From Streptomyces sp. NBC_00490 (lineage in GTDB: Bacteria > Actinomycetota > Actinomycetes > Streptomycetales > Streptomycetaceae): DNA of 64,000 nucleotides. Shown one piece after another: positions 13,006 through 26,350 of this stretch. Position 1 is the first letter of the stretch. Each line of letters opens with the position of its first letter. The notes below the pieces were generated by a model. The model was not told the DNA's origin, did no database searches, and saw nothing but the letters and a program-made list of their open reading frames with translations. The stretch is taken from NCBI RefSeq assembly GCF_036013645.1, contig NZ_CP107869.1, positions 930,001 through 994,000 on the forward strand, in the 5' to 3' direction. Position numbers and translations under genes: made by a program.

Positions 13006-14208
13006 TCAGCGCCCCGGATGGACGCGGACTGGTAGGGACGCCCAGGAGCGCAGGGTGTTGTTGAGGTGTCGGCGCGGGTTCGCGGTGAGTTCGATGTGCT
13101 CGACTCGACGTGCGAGGGCGGTCAGCAGGGCCTCGGCCTCCAGACGGGCGACGTGCTGGCCGACGCACTGGTGGATGCCCATGCCGAAGCCGACATGCCC
13201 GGAGGGGTCGCGCGTGAGGTCGAAGCGGTCGGGATCGTCCCAGCGCTCGGGGTCGCGGTTGGCCGCGCCGAGGAACATCAAGATCTTCGTGCCCTGCAAG
13301 ACGACGGTGCCTGCGATGGTGACGTCGGTGGTGGCGGTACGGAAGAACGTCTGCACCGGCGACTGCCAGCGCACCGCCTCGTCGAAGGCGACCCGTGCCA
13401 ACTCCGGCCGCTCGCGCAGTCGTTGCCACTGTTCGGGGTGGGTGGCGAAGGCGTACAGGCAGGCCGCCAGCCCGTGCACCGTGGTGTCGACACCGGCGGT
13501 GAGCAGGGAGCGCACCACCAGGGGCGCCTGCGCGGGAGTCAGGTCCCCGCGATCGGCGGCGGCCCAGACCCTTGCCCCGAACCCGCCCTCGGCCAGGGCC
13601 TCGCGGGCGCACTGGGCCCTCACCCATGCCGACAGCTCGGCCACTCGGTGGGCGTCGGCCTTCACCAAATCGTTGACGGGCCCGAAGGAGTTGAAGGCCA
13701 TGTTGCCGTACGGCAGGAGGTTCTCCCGGCCGTCCGGGCCAAGGCCCACGGCGTCGGGGAACACCGTGAGCGGGAACGCGCGCGCCAGTTCGGTGAACGC
13801 GTCGAACTCCGTCGCGTCGGCAAGAACGTGCTCGACCAGTTCCTCGGCCGCCTGCTGCCAGGCCTCGCGCAGCTGACGCAGCGCGGGTGGCGCCAGGATC
13901 TCCCGCAGCACGCGTCGAGGTGCGTCGTGCCGAGGCGGGTCGGACTCCAGCAGCAGGCTCGGCGGCCGCCATGGTTTCTCGTGCCGAAAGTTGGCCAGGC
14001 CGACCCCCGCTCCCGACTCGAAGTGCTGCCAGTCCACCAGGGCGGCATGCACTTCCTGATAGCGCGCCAGGGCGTGCACGTCGTAGCGGGAGAGGTAGAC
14101 GACGGGTCCGGCGGACCGCAGGACGTGATGGAGCTCTTCGGGCGCCCGGAGGACGTCGGGTGAGAAGACGTCGGCGTCACAGACGGGCAGCACGGCGGTT
14201 TCGGGCAT
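13006..14208 (-). CDS. Cytochrome P450
   Basis: A 400-residue soluble bacterial P450. Visible motifs in order: the I-helix oxygen-binding AGVDTT (about residue 246), the K-helix FDEAVRW (Glu and Arg of ExxR), and the heme loop FGMGIHQCVG with the Cys ligand near residue 350. The ATG at 14208 is chosen because translation upstream would run through the end of the reductase gene. It lies 34 nt after the reductase gene on the same strand, so electrons probably flow NAD(P)H to FMN to [2Fe-2S] to heme. The substrate is unknown; P450s paired with this type of reductase often demethylate or hydroxylate aromatic acids. Confidence 0.95.
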   Translation of the reverse strand: MPETAVLPVCDADVFSPDVLRAPEELHHVLRSAGPVVYLSRYDVHALARYQEVHAALVDWQHFESGAGVGLANFRHEKPWRPPSLLLESDPPRHDAPRRVLREILAPPALRQLREAWQQAAEELVEHVLADATEFDAFTELARAFPLTVFPDAVGLGPDGRENLLPYGNMAFNSFGPVNDLVKADAHRVAELSAWVRAQCAREALAEGGFGARVWAAADRGDLTPAQAPLVVRSLLTAGVDTTVHGLAACLYAFATHPEQWQRLRERPELARVAFDEAVRWQSPVQTFFRTATTDVTIAGTVVLQGTKILMFLGAANRDPERWDDPDRFDLTRDPSGHVGFGMGIHQCVGQHVARLEAEALLTALARRVEHIELTANPRRHLNNTLRSWASLPVRVHPGR

Positions 14209-14242
14209 GGCGGGTCCTTGCTTCGAGGCTACGGGGAGCAGG

Positions 14243-15202
14243 TCACAGATCGAGGACCAGGCGGTCGTCGCAGGAACGGGACACACACGGGAACATGCAG
14301 GTGTTGGCCGCCCGTTCGTACTCGGCGAGGATCGAGTCACGGTGGTCGGGCCTGCCGTCCAGGACGGGCGTGAGACAGGTGCCGCAGGTGCCCTGTTCGC
14401 AAGAGGACAGCACGTTCGCTCCCGCCCCGCGCACCGCGTCCAGCACCGAGACGTCCGGAGTGACGGTGACAGTGCGCCCCGTTCGCCGCAGCTCCACGTC
14501 GAAGGGCAGATCCCGCACCGGCGCGCGCTGTTCGGCGGCGGTGAAGCGCTCGGTGCGCAGGGTGTACGGCGGCCAGTGGGCGCAGGCGGCCTCCACCGCG
14601 GCGAGCAGCGGAGCGGGACCGCAGCAGTAGACCTTGGTGTCCGGAGGCGGGGTGCCGAGCCAGGACGCGAGGTCGAGCAGTCCCACCTCGTCCTGAGGGG
14701 CGATGTGCACCCGCTCGCCGTGGGCGGCCGTCAGCTCTTCGTGGAAGGCCATGGAGGCCCGGGTTCGTCCGCCGTAGAGCAACTGCCATTCCGCGCCCAG
14801 CAGTTCGGCCTGCTGGACCATCGACAGCAGCGGAGTGATGCCGACGCCGCCCGCGATGAACAGGTACCTCTCCGAGGGTGCCAGCGGGAAGTGGTTGCGC
14901 GGTCCGCCGACACCGATCCGGTCGCCCGGGCGCAGGGTGTCGTGGACGAACGCCGATCCGCCGCGTCCTTTCGGCTCGCGCAGGACGGCGATCCGATAGG
15001 TGTAGGCGTCCCACCGGTTCCCGCACAGCGAGTAGTGCCGCATCGTCCCGCCGGGCAGCACGACTTCGATGTGGGAGCCGGGAGTCCAGTCCGGCAGCCG
15101 CGCGCCCGCCGGATGGGCAAGGGTCAGCGCGACCACACCTTCGGCCACGGTCTCCTTGGCGGAGATCTCCAGAGTCACGACCACGTTGTCGCCTCCCGTC
15201 AT
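14243..15202 (-). CDS. Phthalate dioxygenase reductase-type ferredoxin-NAD(P) oxidoreductase
   Basis: This 319-residue single-chain reductase has the order flavin domain, nucleotide domain, plant-type [2Fe-2S] domain. The flavin motif is MRHYSLCGN (R-x-Y-S), the nucleotide motif is GGVGITPLLSM, and the C-terminal cluster is SCEQGTCGTC plus a later Cys in NTCMF. That is the VanB/phthalate dioxygenase reductase family, which passes electrons from NADH to an oxygenase. It starts at ATG 15202. The P450 follows 34 nt downstream, and the IclR-type regulator lies just upstream on the same strand; a palindrome in its promoter is the likely control site. Confidence 0.94.
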   Translation of the reverse strand: MTGGDNVVVTLEISAKETVAEGVVALTLAHPAGARLPDWTPGSHIEVVLPGGTMRHYSLCGNRWDAYTYRIAVLREPKGRGGSAFVHDTLRPGDRIGVGGPRNHFPLAPSERYLFIAGGVGITPLLSMVQQAELLGAEWQLLYGGRTRASMAFHEELTAAHGERVHIAPQDEVGLLDLASWLGTPPPDTKVYCCGPAPLLAAVEAACAHWPPYTLRTERFTAAEQRAPVRDLPFDVELRRTGRTVTVTPDVSVLDAVRGAGANVLSSCEQGTCGTCLTPVLDGRPDHRDSILAEYERAANTCMFPCVSRSCDDRLVLDL

Positions 15203-15249
15203 CGGATTGCCGGAAGCATGCGCGGGGGCGAGCGGGAGGCGCGACGGGA

Positions 15250-15266
15250 CTCTCATTCAATGAGAG
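15250..15266. promoter_or_regulatory. Palindrome, probable IclR operator for the P450 operon
   Basis: CTCTCATT-C-AATGAGAG is a perfect 8-bp inverted repeat around one base, 47 nt upstream of the reductase start and downstream of the IclR stop codon. Confidence 0.65.
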
Positions 15267-21312: not shown

Positions 21313-21400
21313 CGCGCCAATGACGGACCTCCGACTCCTCGCCGAAGTACAGGGCGCAGGTCTGCTTCCAGCGCTCGACGGCGGCGCGGTCGGCCATGAA
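21313..21400 (-). pseudogene. Relic: C-terminus of a solute-binding protein
   Basis: The minus strand reads FMADRAAVERWKQTCALYFG, nearly identical to FMEDRAQVERLKQTFALYFG at the end of the intact solute-binding protein at 25.2-26.4 kb. Only this 30-residue piece is left. It shows a second copy of that gene once stood here. Confidence 0.78.
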
Positions 21401-21704
21401 GCGAGAGGAAGAAGGGAGGGGATACGGACGCGGTGCGCGGGACGGGCGGCTACTCCCCCTGGGCGACGGCGCCGAGCGTCTGGGCAAAGGTGCCCGTCAC
21501 CCTGCCTGTTGAGTCACTCTGCGGCTTCCTCGGCCAGGTGGGCGCGAACACCGCCGTAAGCCTGGGCAGCCGGCACGACGCTCCCGTCGACGTATTTGAC
21601 TGTCGTCCTGGTACACGAGGCCCACGCGCACCCCGTGGATATGCGGCCCGCTGCGGGAACGGCTCACCGGTGCCCGTCCGCTGACGACGGCCCGACGCAC
21701 CCCA
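21401..21704. other. Degenerate intergenic region
   Basis: No intact gene. On the minus strand two adjacent short protein-like pieces in different frames (VGLVYQDDSQ and, after a shift, YVDGSVVPAAQAYGGVRAHL followed by a stop near 21520) suggest another decayed gene that I cannot identify. Confidence 0.4.
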
Positions 21705-21737
21705 TGGCATCCGCACCCGGTTCCGGCGCGGATGCCA
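21705..21737 (-). terminator. Hairpin terminator of the DsbA-MBL-SnoaL operon
   Basis: TGGCATCCGC (21705-21714) and GCGGATGCCA (21728-21737) form a perfect 10-bp stem, ten bases beyond the stop of the last gene of the minus-strand operon. Confidence 0.75.
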
Positions 21738-21746
21738 CCGAGGAGC

Positions 21747-22127
21747 TCAGAACATGGTGTTGTCGTTGGCGCTCTTCTCCGGCACTTCCTGGATCACGTC
21801 CCAGTGCTCGACGATCTTCCCGTCGACGACACGCCAGAAGTCCGCGACGGCCATGCCACGGTCGCCGGGCTTGAGGTGCAGGTTGCTGTAGGTGACCACC
21901 AGGTCCCCTTCGGCGATCGCTCGCTTGACGTCCAGGCGCAGGTCGGGGAACTGTCCGCGCAGCCAGTGGACATAGCCGACGAACGCCTGCGGTCCGTCCT
22001 GGGCCTCGGGGTTGTGCTGGGTGTAGTTATCGCCGAGGTGGGCTTCGGCCGCCTGTTCGGGCTGGTAGTCGTTGAACGCCTGCTCGTAGAAGGCGATCAC
22101 GAGCGCCTTGTTGTCCTGAGCGGGCAT
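21747..22127 (-). CDS. SnoaL-like / NTF2-like protein
   Basis: A 126-residue alpha+beta barrel protein of the SnoaL-like polyketide-cyclase type: KALVIAFYEQAFND, the conserved YTQHNPEAQDG, then VVTYSNLHLKPGDRGMAVADFWRVVDGKIVEHWDVIQE. Family members include ring-closing aldolases and small hydrolases or isomerases; most are uncharacterised. The ATG at 22127 has AGGGGAT upstream. Last gene of a four-gene operon with another SnoaL-like protein, an MBL protein and a DsbA-like protein. Confidence 0.92.
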   Translation of the reverse strand: MPAQDNKALVIAFYEQAFNDYQPEQAAEAHLGDNYTQHNPEAQDGPQAFVGYVHWLRGQFPDLRLDVKRAIAEGDLVVTYSNLHLKPGDRGMAVADFWRVVDGKIVEHWDVIQEVPEKSANDNTMF

Positions 22128-22161
22128 GCGGATCCCCTGCCTTGCCGTGGTACGGAACCCG

Positions 22162-22572
22162 TCAGTCCGTCATGGCGTCGCGGACGAGGGCGGTGTCGAC
22201 GAACTGCTCGAACCGCACGATGAGTCCGCCGCGTACGACGAAGTGGTGGGCGACGCGGACGGCGATCGGCTTGCCGGTGGCCTTGTTGGTCGCGGTGTAG
22301 CGGGCCAGAACGACGACGTTCTCGCCGTCGACGACGTAGGTGTCGTCGTGGGCGGCCCAGCCGTCCCAGTCCTGGCCGAGCTTCTCCATGACGTTGGCGG
22401 TGACGCCGTCGGGGGTGCGGTAGGTGCCGGCGAGAGGGAAGCCGGCCATCTCGGTCCACTCCACGTCGGGGGCGAGGGTGGCGCGCAGTGCTTCCAGGTC
22501 GCCGGCGGCGGAGGCCAGGTACTGGCGGCGTACGACGTCGGCGGGGGCCGTGGAAGTGGCGAACTCGGTCAT
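22162..22572 (-). CDS. SnoaL-like / NTF2-like protein
   Basis: A second NTF2-fold protein (136 residues) with VVRRQYLASAAGDLEALRATLAPDVEWTE-type opening and ending VRVAHHFVVRGGLIVRFEQFVDT. This is the limonene-epoxide-hydrolase/ketosteroid-isomerase-like group. It starts at ATG 22572, two bases after the MBL gene's stop, so translation is coupled. The two SnoaL-like proteins in this operon differ clearly, so they are not a recent duplicate pair. Function unknown. Confidence 0.92.
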   Translation of the reverse strand: MTEFATSTAPADVVRRQYLASAAGDLEALRATLAPDVEWTEMAGFPLAGTYRTPDGVTANVMEKLGQDWDGWAAHDDTYVVDGENVVVLARYTATNKATGKPIAVRVAHHFVVRGGLIVRFEQFVDTALVRDAMTD

Positions 22573-22574
22573 GG

Positions 22575-23381
22575 TCAGCCCCACTTCATCTCGCCCTTGG
22601 CGACCTTCGCCCCGAGCTGGGCTGCGATCAGCATGCCGTTGTCCGGGTAGCGCGCGATCAGCGCCTCGGTCAGCGCGGCACCGTCGGCCGCCTTGCCGAG
22701 CTCCTCCTCGAAGGCGACGAGGTAGTCGCGGGTCGCGGTGATCGCGGACGCGTCGGCGGCGGTGCCGGGCAGGCGGTGGCCCGGGACGACCAGCTGCGGG
22801 TCGAGGGCGGCCATCTCGTCGAGGAGCTTGATCCAGGCGGTGCGGGAGGCGGGGGTGGCGGTGTCGGCGACCCAGACGTGCTCCTGCTGGAAGAGCAGGA
22901 CGCCGCCGAGCAGGGCGCGGTGCTCGGCCTGCCACAGGTAGTGCCGGTCGGAGAGCTCGGGGGTGCCGCCCTTGAGCTCGAAGCGGTGGCCCTCCAGGGT
23001 GAGGTCGCCGGTCAGCGGCTCCAGGTCGACCAGGCGGGTGGGCAGGTTCGGGCCGAGGGCCTCCCAGGCCTTGAGCTTGCCCTCGTAGGAGTGCTGGATG
23101 TGCTCGATGACGATGGGGGTGGCGACGAACTTCGCCTCGGGGAAGGCGTCGGCGATGACTTCGGCGCCGAAGTAGAAGTCGGGGTCGCCGTGGGAGACGA
23201 ACACGGTGGTGAGCTGCTTGCCGGAGTCGAGGATCTCGGCGGCCAGGCGGTGGCCGTCGGCGCGGGTGAAGGCGGCGTCGACGAGCAGCGCCTCGGTCTC
23301 GCCGGTGACGAGGGTGGCGGTCTTGTTCTTGCTGCCGGCCGGGAAGTCCAGGTCGAGGACCTTGAAGTCGAGCGTGCTCAT
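22575..23381 (-). CDS. Vmh-type MBL fold metallo-hydrolase
   Basis: 268 residues of metallo-beta-lactamase fold: ALLVDAAFTRADGHRLAAEIL, the first metal loop as FVSHGDPDFYFG, then VVPGHRLPG. The usual HxHxDH loop is replaced by SHGDPD, as in the Vmh-like branch, so metal content and chemistry may differ from ordinary MBL hydrolases. The ATG at 23381 has AAAGGAG. It sits between the DsbA-like and SnoaL-like genes in one operon. A truncated paralogue, sharing MSTLxFxVxxLDFPxG, remains at 24979 on the other side of the MarR gene. Confidence 0.9.
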   Translation of the reverse strand: MSTLDFKVLDLDFPAGSKNKTATLVTGETEALLVDAAFTRADGHRLAAEILDSGKQLTTVFVSHGDPDFYFGAEVIADAFPEAKFVATPIVIEHIQHSYEGKLKAWEALGPNLPTRLVDLEPLTGDLTLEGHRFELKGGTPELSDRHYLWQAEHRALLGGVLLFQQEHVWVADTATPASRTAWIKLLDEMAALDPQLVVPGHRLPGTAADASAITATRDYLVAFEEELGKAADGAALTEALIARYPDNGMLIAAQLGAKVAKGEMKWG

Positions 23382-23430
23382 CGGTGGCTCCTTTGCGCGA
23401 GGGACGGGGTGGGGTGGGGACGGGGGAAGC

Positions 23431-24039
23431 TCAGTGCGCGGCGAGGCGTTCGTCGATCTCGTCGGCGGTGGCGTGGCCGTGGGCCAGCGGGGTGACGGTG
23501 TCGCCGTCGACGGCCAGGAGGGTGGGGAAGCCGGTGACGCCGAGGTGGGCCGCGCGGCGGAAGTCGGCCTCGGCGGCGGCCCGCGTTCCAGGGGCTTCGA
23601 AGGCGGCGACGACGGCGTCCGCGTCGAGTCCGGCTGCCTGGGCGACCGTGCGGTAGGTGGCCGGGTCGGACAGGCTCAGGCCGTCGACGTAGAAGGCGTT
23701 CTGGAGGGCGGCGGCCAGTTCTGCCGCGCGGTCGGGGGCGACCTGGCGCAGGGCGGCGACGCCACGGGCGGCGGCCTCGGAGTCCATGACGAACGAGCCG
23801 TCGGCGATCAGCCGCTCGTAGCCCTCGCCGAACTCGGCACCGGTCAGCTCGGCGATCTTGGCGTTCGCGCCCTGGACGTAGCCGAACTGGCGGATCGGGA
23901 CCCGGCGCGGTCCGGTGAACAGGCCGCCGGAGACCACCTCCACCGGCAGTTCGGGGTGGCGGGAGACGGTCTCGCGGAGCGTCCCGGAGAAACCGTGGGA
24001 CCAGCCGCAGTAGGCGTCGAAGACGTAGACGAGCTTCAT
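23431..24039 (-). CDS. DsbA family protein with CGWS active site
   Basis: A 202-residue thioredoxin-fold protein with inserted helical domain, like DsbA/FrnE. The N-terminal active site reads DAYCGWSHGF, so the second Cys of CxxC is Ser. The helical insert runs about 60-150, and the cis-Pro region is VTGFPTLLAVDG. No signal peptide, so it is cytoplasmic. A single-Cys site is suited to glutathione-, mycothiol- or isomerase-like chemistry rather than disulfide exchange. First gene of the operon; its promoter carries the CTGACTCGTCAG palindrome, a predicted MarR site. Confidence 0.92.
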   Translation of the reverse strand: MKLVYVFDAYCGWSHGFSGTLRETVSRHPELPVEVVSGGLFTGPRRVPIRQFGYVQGANAKIAELTGAEFGEGYERLIADGSFVMDSEAAARGVAALRQVAPDRAAELAAALQNAFYVDGLSLSDPATYRTVAQAAGLDADAVVAAFEAPGTRAAAEADFRRAAHLGVTGFPTLLAVDGDTVTPLAHGHATADEIDERLAAH

Positions 24040-24101
24040 CGAAGACCTCGGTAAGGAGGACCGCCCGCCGGTTGCGAGCAGTTCATCTGATCAAACAGTA
24101 G

Positions 24102-24113
24102 CTGACTCGTCAG
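24102..24113. promoter_or_regulatory. MarR operator candidate before DsbA operon
   Basis: CTGAC-TC-GTCAG, 63 nt upstream of the DsbA-like start. The same 12 bp recur at 24901-24912, flanking the MarR gene on both sides. Confidence 0.72.
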
Positions 24114-24191
24114 ACATTCCTCGAACCGTGTGAACTGGGACACACAAACGAGGCCACTGTCATTAGACCCGCACTCCCACCGCTTCGCAGG

Positions 24192-24686
24192 TCAGGGCAG
24201 TCGAGGCAGCACATCCCTGGCCGTGTGACTGAGGATCCGCAGATCCTCCGCGAACCGCGCGCGGTCCGCCTCCGGCAAGGGCTCCACGAAGTACCGCTTG
24301 ATGTTCTCCAAGTGCACCTGCGCAGCGCGTACGGCCGTCTCCTCGCCCAGCGCTGTCAGCCGCACCAGCTTGCCGCGCCGGTCGCCCGGGGACTCCGCGC
24401 GCGTCACAAGTCCAGCCGTCTCCATGCGATCCACCAGCCGGGTGGCGCCGCCGGTGGTCAGGACCTGCTCTTGCGCGATCGCCCGCATGGAAAGTCCCGG
24501 CTCGCCCACCCGCCCCAGGATCAGCAGCACCTCGAAGACCAGATGACTGATGCCACACTCCACCTCGAGCGCCCGGCCAAGGATGTACTCCAGCCGGTTC
24601 GCCGCCCCCTGAAGCCGCCCGAACGCCAGGACGAGCTCGTGGTCGGCAGCCTCCTTCACCGTCCCGATCTCCGCTTGCTCATCCAC
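24192..24686 (-). CDS. MarR family transcriptional regulator
   Basis: A 164-residue winged-helix regulator: dimerisation helices at the ends and the DNA-binding part at about 40-110 (LSMRAIAQEQVLTTGGATRLVDRMETAGLV, then ESPGDRRGKLVRLTALG). The frame is open to 24881, but the GTG at 24686 follows GAGGAGGGGGT and starts where MarR proteins normally start; the upstream sequence is a Pro/Gly-rich antisense-like stretch. Identical palindromes lie on each side of the gene, so it probably controls the DsbA operon and the gene once present at 24979. Confidence 0.9.
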   Translation of the reverse strand: MDEQAEIGTVKEAADHELVLAFGRLQGAANRLEYILGRALEVECGISHLVFEVLLILGRVGEPGLSMRAIAQEQVLTTGGATRLVDRMETAGLVTRAESPGDRRGKLVRLTALGEETAVRAAQVHLENIKRYFVEPLPEADRARFAEDLRILSHTARDVLPRLP

Positions 24687-24900
24687 GACGTCGCCACCCC
24701 CTCCTCTCACCCCAGCATCACCGTACCGATCACGCAGGGCACGGGCGGCAGAGCCGAATCGAATGGCCCGGCCGATCGGCGGCGGCCCCGGAGGCGCCAT
24801 GAGCCACATGTACGGCTCTCCTGCGGGCGCGGCAGCCACGCCAACTGCCTTGCCGGCCATGCGACTCGGATCACATCGCATGCCTCCGACACAAGAACAC

Positions 24901-24912
24901 CTGACTCGTCAG
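24901..24912. promoter_or_regulatory. MarR operator candidate, second copy
   Basis: Second copy of CTGAC-TC-GTCAG, 67 nt upstream of the truncated MBL gene at 24979; the following AGATACTCTT resembles the flank of the first copy. Confidence 0.68.
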
Positions 24913-24978
24913 ATACTCTTCAGGTGAACCGCTCGCCCCCAGCGAGCCCCATTCCCGACCGAAGAGCGAAGAGCCCTG

Positions 24979-25165: not shown

Positions 25166-25180
25166 GTGTTCCGGGAACAC
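25166..25180. promoter_or_regulatory. Palindrome upstream of solute-binding protein
   Basis: GTGTTCC-G-GGAACAC, a perfect 7-bp inverted repeat around one base, 30 nt before the GTG start of the solute-binding protein. It could be an operator; the regulator is not evident. Confidence 0.5.
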
Positions 25181-25210
25181 CCCTGCCCCCACGCAGAAAG
25201 GGTTACCCCA

Positions 25211-26350
25211 GTGACCAGCCTTCCCAGTCGTCGGCGCCTCCTTGCCACCGGAGCGGGCGCCGCGCTCGGACTCGGCGCGCTCGGCGCCACCGCGACCCCC
25301 GCCGCGGCCGGCCCGGCCACAGCCGCACGCGGCGCCGGCTCCGAGGAGACCAGGAGCCTCGACGAGCTGTACCAGGACGCCCTCGCCGAAGGCGGCAAGC
25401 TCATCATCTACGCGGGCGGCGACCTCGCCAACTCCGGCAGCGGCGCCGGCGCCCGGACCGCCTTCCGCCAGCGGTTCCCGCAGATCGACCTCAACCTCAT
25501 CGTGGACTACAGCAAGTACCACGACGTCCGCGTGGACAACCAGTTGGCGACCGACACCCTGGTCCCCGACGTGGTGCAGTTGCAGACGCTCCAGGACTTC
25601 ACCCGCTGGAAGCGCCAGGGCCGGCTGCTGCACTACAAGCCCGCCGGCTTCAGCAAGCTGTACAAGAAGTTCCGGGACCCGGACGGTGCATGGGTGGCCG
25701 GCATGGTCATCGCCTTCAGCTACCTGTACGACGTGGCGGCGGCCGGGGCCGACGCGCCGCGGACGCCGCTGGACCTGGTCGACCCGCGTTGGAAGGGTGC
25801 CATCGCCTCCTCCTACCCGCACGACGACGACGCGGTGCTCTACCTCTTCGCCCTCTACGCGGAGACCTACGGCTGGGACTGGGTGGCCGACTTCGCCGCC
25901 CAGCAGCCGCAGTTCGCCCGCGGCACCTTCTCCCCCGGCACCGCGGTCACCAACAAGGAGAAGATCATCGGCGTCGGCGCGGGTGGCAACCCGCTCGCCA
26001 CCAGCCCGAACCGCTGGATGATGACCGACGGGCACCCGTTCATGGCGTGGGGTCAGCGGATCGCGATCCTGAAGCAGGCCGCCAACCCCACGGCGGCCAA
26101 GCTCTACCTCAACTGGCAGCTGTCCACCGAGCGTCAGACCTCCAACAGCTGGTCCGTGCGCACGGACATCGCGCCGCCCACCGGCCTCAAGCCGATCTGG
26201 GAGTACCCGAACGCCAACGTGGACGGGTTCCCTCGCTTCATGGAGGACCGGGCCCAGGTCGAGCGGCTGAAGCAGACCTTCGCCCTCTACTTCGGCGAGG
26301 TCAAGGGCGACCCGACACCCGGTTGGCCGGGCCTGCACCCGGGCGCCTGA
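25211..26350 (+). CDS. ABC transporter extracellular solute-binding protein, orphan
   Basis: A 379-residue family-1 type binding protein, resembling iron(III) or polyol/spermidine binders. The N-terminus SRRRLLATGAGAALGLGALG with AAAGPATAA is a twin-arginine-like export signal; there is no lipobox Cys. The core includes LIIYAGGDLANSG, a ligand-lobe PDVVQLQTLQDF and a hinge region WKGAIASSYPHDDDAV. The GTG at 25211 follows AAAGGG. No permease or ATPase gene adjoins it and a hairpin terminator follows, so it acts alone or with a transporter elsewhere. A 30-residue relic of a second copy lies at 21.3 kb. Confidence 0.9.
   Translation: MTSLPSRRRLLATGAGAALGLGALGATATPAAAGPATAARGAGSEETRSLDELYQDALAEGGKLIIYAGGDLANSGSGAGARTAFRQRFPQIDLNLIVDYSKYHDVRVDNQLATDTLVPDVVQLQTLQDFTRWKRQGRLLHYKPAGFSKLYKKFRDPDGAWVAGMVIAFSYLYDVAAAGADAPRTPLDLVDPRWKGAIASSYPHDDDAVLYLFALYAETYGWDWVADFAAQQPQFARGTFSPGTAVTNKEKIIGVGAGGNPLATSPNRWMMTDGHPFMAWGQRIAILKQAANPTAAKLYLNWQLSTERQTSNSWSVRTDIAPPTGLKPIWEYPNANVDGFPRFMEDRAQVERLKQTFALYFGEVKGDPTPGWPGLHPGA

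Follow-up and report, generated by a model that had tools for sequence, protein, structure and literature searches.

Five genes follow one another on the minus strand of the window, the whole 64,000-nucleotide stretch of Streptomyces sp. NBC_00490 DNA that we analyzed. In the 5'-to-3' direction, they encode a MarR-family regulator, a DsbA-like protein, an MBL-fold protein, and two NTF2-fold proteins, here called SnoaLA and SnoaLB, and the series ends in a hairpin (Table 1). The four linked genes described in a first-pass annotation were indeed found at 24039-21747, with the MarR gene upstream. Their linkage is as tight as had been stated, the gaps being 49 nt between DsbA and MBL, 2 nt between MBL and SnoaLA, and 34 nt between SnoaLA and SnoaLB.

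Table 1. Features of the putative operon and of the adjoining DNA (positions in the window)
Feature	Position	Strand	Remarks
MarR-family regulator	24192..24686	-	164 aa from likely GTG; Pfam MarR_2, MarR
Putative operator dyad before DsbA	24099..24116	-	conserved pattern match
DsbA-like thioredoxin-fold protein, 202 aa	23431..24039	-	Pfam DSBA
MBL-fold protein, 268 aa, SHGDPDFYFG	22575..23381	-	
SnoaLA, NTF2-fold SnoaL_2 protein, 136 aa	22162..22572	-	Pfam SnoaL_2
SnoaLB, NTF2-fold SnoaL protein, 126 aa	21747..22127	-	Pfam SnoaL_2 and SnoaL; optional
Hairpin after SnoaLB, possible 3' end	21705..21737	-	folding; no T-run
Second copy of putative operator, one mismatch	24898..24915	+	heads relic duplicate divergent from operon
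Relic MBL N-terminus, first 16 codons	24979..25026	+	68.75% identity over 16 residues
Solute-binding protein gene, downstream of second operator	25166..26350	+	Pfam SBP_bac_6, 35.4 bits

The hairpin has 13-nt arms that are 92% complementary around a 7-nt loop, and its folding z score is -4.19, none of 200 shuffled sequences being equally good. The hairpin is strong, but the "perfect terminator" announced earlier is an overstatement, because no T-run follows it and a terminator scan reported no site. A sigma-70 promoter scan of the operon likewise reported no promoter. Based on the sequence, the DsbA-MBL-SnoaL gene set is a conserved, unusually equipped putative operon, which we infer to be read as a single transcript.

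Two further features lie on the same strand. Just past the operon, 21338-21403 encodes a C-terminal remnant of a solute-binding protein, 22 residues that are 82% identical to the intact protein of Table 1. About 6 kb from the operon, at 13006-15256, a P450 gene adjoins one for a 2Fe-2S ferredoxin-domain protein, a possible oxygenase pair.

The regulator and its putative operator

The regulator exceeds the Pfam cut-offs for both MarR_2 (50.9 bits) and MarR (33.1 bits). Its reading frame is open up to 24881, and the alignments of many orthologs begin near residue 34 of the longer frame; judging from the ortholog starts among the matches listed, the start is likely the GTG at 24686 and not 24881. 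The protein has one cysteine (codon 24557-24555), which is kept in 61 of 63 scorable orthologs. It scores under the cut-off of every curated NCBIfam model with which it was compared, thiol sensors included; the OhrR equivalog NF052638 gives 26 bits versus a cut-off of 200, the one conserved Cys being present.

The operator proposed in front of the DsbA gene was borne out: CTGACTCGTCAG, at 24102-24113, lies within an 18-nt dyad (TGTCTGACGAGTCAGCTA on the minus strand) whose conservation is well above chance. Sixty-one loci passed filters for identity, completeness, and length, and the removal of 2 duplicate spacers left 59 distinct MarR-DsbA spacers, with the consensus GaAATATCTGACg.GTCAGtTACTGTT. 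The exact CTGACNNGTCAG occurs in 47 of the 59, versus 1 of 11,800 shuffled spacers, and at least 9 of the 10 dyad arm bases are matched in 57. The central dinucleotide takes nine different versions in the 47 exact spacers, and such a variable center between conserved arms would fit a dimeric repressor. A -10-like TACTGT (24100-24095) overlaps the end of the dyad. Two loci that lack DsbA and keep this MarR (L036 and L060) carry the exact dyad directly before MBL. In nine loci where another MarR lies divergently, no dyad scores above 8/10. MarR was not detected at L042, which has the exact dyad, or at L059, where the dyad scores 8. The sequence marks of a MarR-repressed operon, a MarR domain and a conserved dyad ahead of its first gene, are both present, and their conservation supports control of the operon by MarR.

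In the 10.8-Mb genome, the only match without mismatch to the longer conserved operator pattern is the dyad before DsbA. Sites with one mismatch are the second copy in Table 1 and C1:10085021 (L117), around which the listed ORFs show no link to the operon. With up to two mismatches, the pattern has 10 matches versus 5 for a reversed control, so the two-mismatch sites are not above chance. The relic MBL behind the second copy matches with an E value of 6e-5 in the local stretch and of 0.036 across the whole window. The solute-binding protein gene farther downstream is possibly a regulon member in the NBC_00490 genome only; as a general member it was rejected, the homologs scored elsewhere having upstream dyads of at most 8/10. 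We do not claim MarR autoregulation through the second copy, because the 400 nt upstream of its orthologs contain no site of at least 9/10 in 56 of 58 cases and because this copy heads the plus-strand relic MBL.

Co-conservation of the genes

Using MBL as bait, we analyzed the best 80 of 376 matching loci in named Streptomyces, each count being taken over the loci with enough flank. Some loci from other genomes repeat named ones (L009/L086 and L005/L051), and the closest named locus is that of S. canus V4I20, with an MBL that is 99% identical. Among these best 80 of 376, SnoaLA stands behind MBL in 77 of 77 loci, DsbA precedes it in 62 of 75, and the MarR ortholog precedes in 56 of 72; MarR, DsbA, MBL, and SnoaLA were all seen in 52 of the 80, short contigs included. 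A downstream SnoaLB is present in 11 of 76, and 12 of 65 have a solute-binding protein homolog nearby. The co-conservation foreseen for four genes hence extends to DsbA, MBL, and SnoaLA, together with MarR, but SnoaLB is an optional tail. A lack of co-conservation, named in the first-pass annotation as a refuting outcome, is therefore not what this core shows.

A check without bait consisted in searching 246 Streptomyces genomes gene by gene, with adjacency defined as within 700 nt. At an identity of at least 70%, DsbA is found in 38 genomes, MBL in 38, and SnoaLA in 36; 35 genomes are common to DsbA and MBL, and 35 to MBL and SnoaLA. Of the 51 DsbA places, which include paralogs of 42 to 57% identity and contig ends, 33 have MBL following within 700 nt, and MBL stands before SnoaLA at 40 of 48 MBL places. 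At an E value of 1e-60 or better, MBL is present in 40 of these 246 genomes; in a phylum-wide sample, 5 of 296 genomes contain it at 1e-30 or better.

Several loci depart from this arrangement. Nine (L029, L032, L037, L046, L052, L054, L066, L083, and L098) have an alternative form, in which MBL-SnoaLA lacks DsbA and is accompanied by a different divergent MarR and a solute-binding protein; some of the nine have SnoaLB as well, and L037 encodes one more SnoaL protein, in tandem, that seems to carry a signal peptide. Downstream of the first MBL-SnoaLA pair, L057 (7779-8582) and L068 (from about 7707) contain a second copy of MBL, and the region in front of this copy reads like a Tat signal. At G434:C1:8075130-8075963, a partial match to DsbA and one to MBL have 9 nt in common and the same open-frame length, and they look fused after a deletion. 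Genome G382 carries two equal-scoring diverged DsbA-MBL pairs (C1:41509-42986 and 12081823-12083300) near opposite contig ends, perhaps in terminal repeats.

The MBL clade also occurs in proteobacteria, sampled here on plasmids, with 17 MBL loci hand-chosen from 191 matching records (L108 and L165 are near relatives). DsbA is in the flank of 12 of the 17 and absent beside MBL in 5, the annotation of 12 places a divergent LysR gene beside the set, and the set includes an NTF2 gene in 5 (L107, L108, L153, L160, and L165), in the order MBL-DsbA-NTF2 at L160. At L159 and L162, a different helix-turn-helix gene occurs together with one for an NAD(P)-dependent oxidoreductase; the L159 regulator is an HxlR protein whose best NCBIfam matches are the redox regulators RrpB and RrpA, below their cut-offs. 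PF13460 NAD(P)H-binding neighbors occur at L159 and L110, and also at L112, beside a DsbA without MBL. The swapped regulators and altered gene order favor a shared function over the inheritance of one block, the 17 loci not being an independent sample for this argument. DsbA was found beside 0 of 15 canonical MBL relatives, a weak comparison with flanks of mostly 1.5 kb (3 kb for L166). By eye, the N-termini of 16 aligned proteobacterial MBLs are Tat- or Sec-like and the DsbA and NTF2 partners are without signals; the proteins may therefore not share a compartment there, which speaks against a single, simple pathway common to every host. On an S. cynarae plasmid (L164, 3100-4702), two NTF2 genes precede one for a DsbA-family oxidoreductase, with no MBL annotated in the stretch.

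Active sites of the encoded proteins

All four enzymes had been credited with altered active sites. This is so for the DsbA-like protein (AYCGWSH) and for MBL (SHGDPDFYFG), but no alteration was demonstrated in the SnoaL proteins.

The DsbA-like protein scores 54.5 bits with Pfam DSBA. Its sole cysteine is C11 of the C11-G-W-S14 motif, so it lacks the CxxC redox pair of the DsbA/DsbM disulfide oxidoreductases; C11 and S14 are present in 71 of 72 orthologs, the remaining one not being scorable. The closest solved relatives are 2in3 and DsbM (5hfi/5hfg), a cytosolic disulfide reductase of P. aeruginosa, with a sequence match to DsbM at an E value of 2.6e-15; the DsbM-like family bears the label COG3531. 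DsbM ranks second and fourth in Foldseek and shares the thioredoxin fold (TM-score up to 0.81) and the CGW motif, but it has CGWC where the window protein has CGWS, and identity is about 27%. Among the close fold matches is a structure of DsbM determined with GSH. Kappa-class GST and HCCA isomerase, which use Ser, also match the fold of the window model (TM about 0.62-0.67), but they are distant and the window protein keeps the catalytic Cys.

The window MBL belongs, with a support of 0.99, to a DPD[FY] clade of 26 of the 41 tree sequences, with a Vmh-family protein among them. The clade has other residues in place of most canonical zinc ligands: there is no fixed residue at position 64, Asp stands at 66 and Phe or Tyr at 69, and Asp is absent from 161. 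The window protein, with H64, D66, D68, F69, V161, and H202, has not the dizinc ligand set of class B beta-lactamases (HxHxDH, Asp/Cys, last His). D66, D68, H168, D173, and H202 are invariant in 26 of 26 members, suggesting a working site, and Cys is absent from 89 of 92 aligned MBLs. The MBL fold is predicted; a sequence search against PDB chains at an E value of 1e-3 gave no match, and no signal peptide was seen by eye at the N-terminus. Since it has lost most of the canonical zinc ligands, the hydrolysis step suggested in the first-pass annotation is doubtful for this protein in its ordinary dizinc form, though conceivable, given that mono-zinc enzymes whose site is altered, such as CphA, are known.

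SnoaLA scores 62.0 bits with Pfam SnoaL_2 and also matches DUF4440, but not SnoaL (PF07366). Its close sequence relatives are the NTF2-like proteins 3ec9 (E value of 8e-32) and 3grd, the entry names of which give no function. SnoaLB scores 61.9 bits with SnoaL_2 and 61 bits with SnoaL PF07366, versus a cut-off of 28.4. It is related to 3g0k (E value of 8.4e-24) and weakly matches the SnoL, AclR, and IdmH chains.

Discussion

The reading that we favor, with a confidence somewhat short of even, is that the operon encodes a MarR-repressed, thiol-dependent detoxification unit for a reactive small molecule. MarR would occupy the dyad at the dsbA promoter until it binds an inducer or has its single cysteine modified. 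The one-cysteine DsbM-like protein may then form or resolve a thiol adduct, with mycothiol in Streptomyces and glutathione in proteobacteria, the MBL-fold protein, its metal site being reduced or absent, may bind or convert the product, and the isomerization or dehydration of this product may fall to the NTF2-fold protein. By way of analogy only, an NTF2-family protein is predicted to isomerize an aromatic breakdown product in a passage of PMC12314914 that does not describe the module.

The genes present, their regulators, and some of the neighbors in other bacteria would be compatible with an undescribed detoxification or conversion unit, as first suggested; within that suggestion, hydrolysis by MBL is doubtful and SnoaLB is not part of the core. 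We count in favor of detoxification the co-conservation, the tight spacing, the conserved dyad, the MarR cysteine, C11/S14 in DsbA, the Cys-poor MBLs, the DsbA flanks on plasmids, the swapped regulators, the PF13460 neighbors, and the fold match to DsbM with GSH. We count against it the signals of the proteobacterial MBLs, the MarR scores below NCBIfam cut-offs, the scans without promoter or terminator, the missing DsbA at 5 of 17 plasmid and 13 of 75 Streptomyces loci, and the two loci without MarR.

Were MBL an active hydrolase like Vmh of V. vulnificus, a reported beta-lactam degrader, the operon would serve intrinsic resistance or the hydrolysis of a lactone or ester, the other proteins being accessory. 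We consider this unlikely, even though the predicted fold is that of an MBL and Vmh is listed as a carbapenemase in PMC9604146. A Pantoea member of the same clade (L158, 3390-4244) passes the Vmh equivalog model NF040580 (464.8 bits versus a cut-off of 430) and shares with the window MBL DPD[FY] and the replaced ligands. It has SGDPDFYF and no canonical HxHxDH, despite the activity reported for Vmh. The window MBL matches nearly the full length of that profile but stays below the cut-off, with 228.6 bits, and differs further in that no signal peptide was seen; the ligand changes throughout the clade also argue against this reading. In the stretch read, Pantoea has a LysR-Vmh arrangement without DsbA, another difference from the window.

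The loss of zinc ligands would suit a sensing or sequestration module, in which the MBL-fold and NTF2-fold proteins bind a ligand without converting it and DsbA independently maintains protein thiols. The solute-binding protein near some loci agrees with this reading, which we rate as still less probable: the five residues identical in all clade members suggest a working site, and the solute-binding genes of other loci are without the dyad. It is improbable that the operon is a piece of secondary metabolism, with the SnoaL proteins as cyclases and the remaining proteins tailoring the product. SnoaLB does pass the Pfam SnoaL model and resembles the SnoaL/SnoL polyketide cyclases, and genes for a P450, a ferredoxin-type reductase, a methyltransferase, and SDRs lie elsewhere in the window. 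However, the similarity to the cyclases is weak, no PKS/NRPS or other polyketide gene was found among ten further window genes profiled, and the DsbA-MBL pair recurs in proteobacteria too. After MarR, DsbA, MBL, and SnoaLA, the top neighbor shared by the best 80 of 376 loci is the solute-binding protein (14 of 80). Antiphage defense was rejected, none of the five proteins having a PADLOC match.

Returning to detoxification, the recurrence of versions of the set in distant bacteria suggests an undescribed protective reaction. A bolder proposal, which we regard as possible but doubtful, is that an MBL branch lost its dinuclear zinc site and partners with a cytosolic protein of the thioredoxin fold, often joined by one of the NTF2 fold, in a new, cross-phylum form of thiol-dependent detoxification with swapped regulators. 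If so, the reported carbapenemase activity of Vmh would be a side activity of this ligand-poor branch.

Our literature searches, in which most subscription journals were outside the scope, returned no paper on the DsbA-MBL-SnoaL combination and, for CGWS with DsbA and for DsbM, nothing on the combination. The MBL is present in 40 of 246 Streptomyces genomes and the DsbA-MBL pair recurs in proteobacteria, yet a described function was not found in the literature searched. The main interest of the operon lies in its ligand-poor MBL clade and the DsbM-like partner. How the clade that contains Vmh works with most canonical zinc ligands absent, and why such an MBL travels with a DsbM-like protein, are the two parts of a sharp, testable question.
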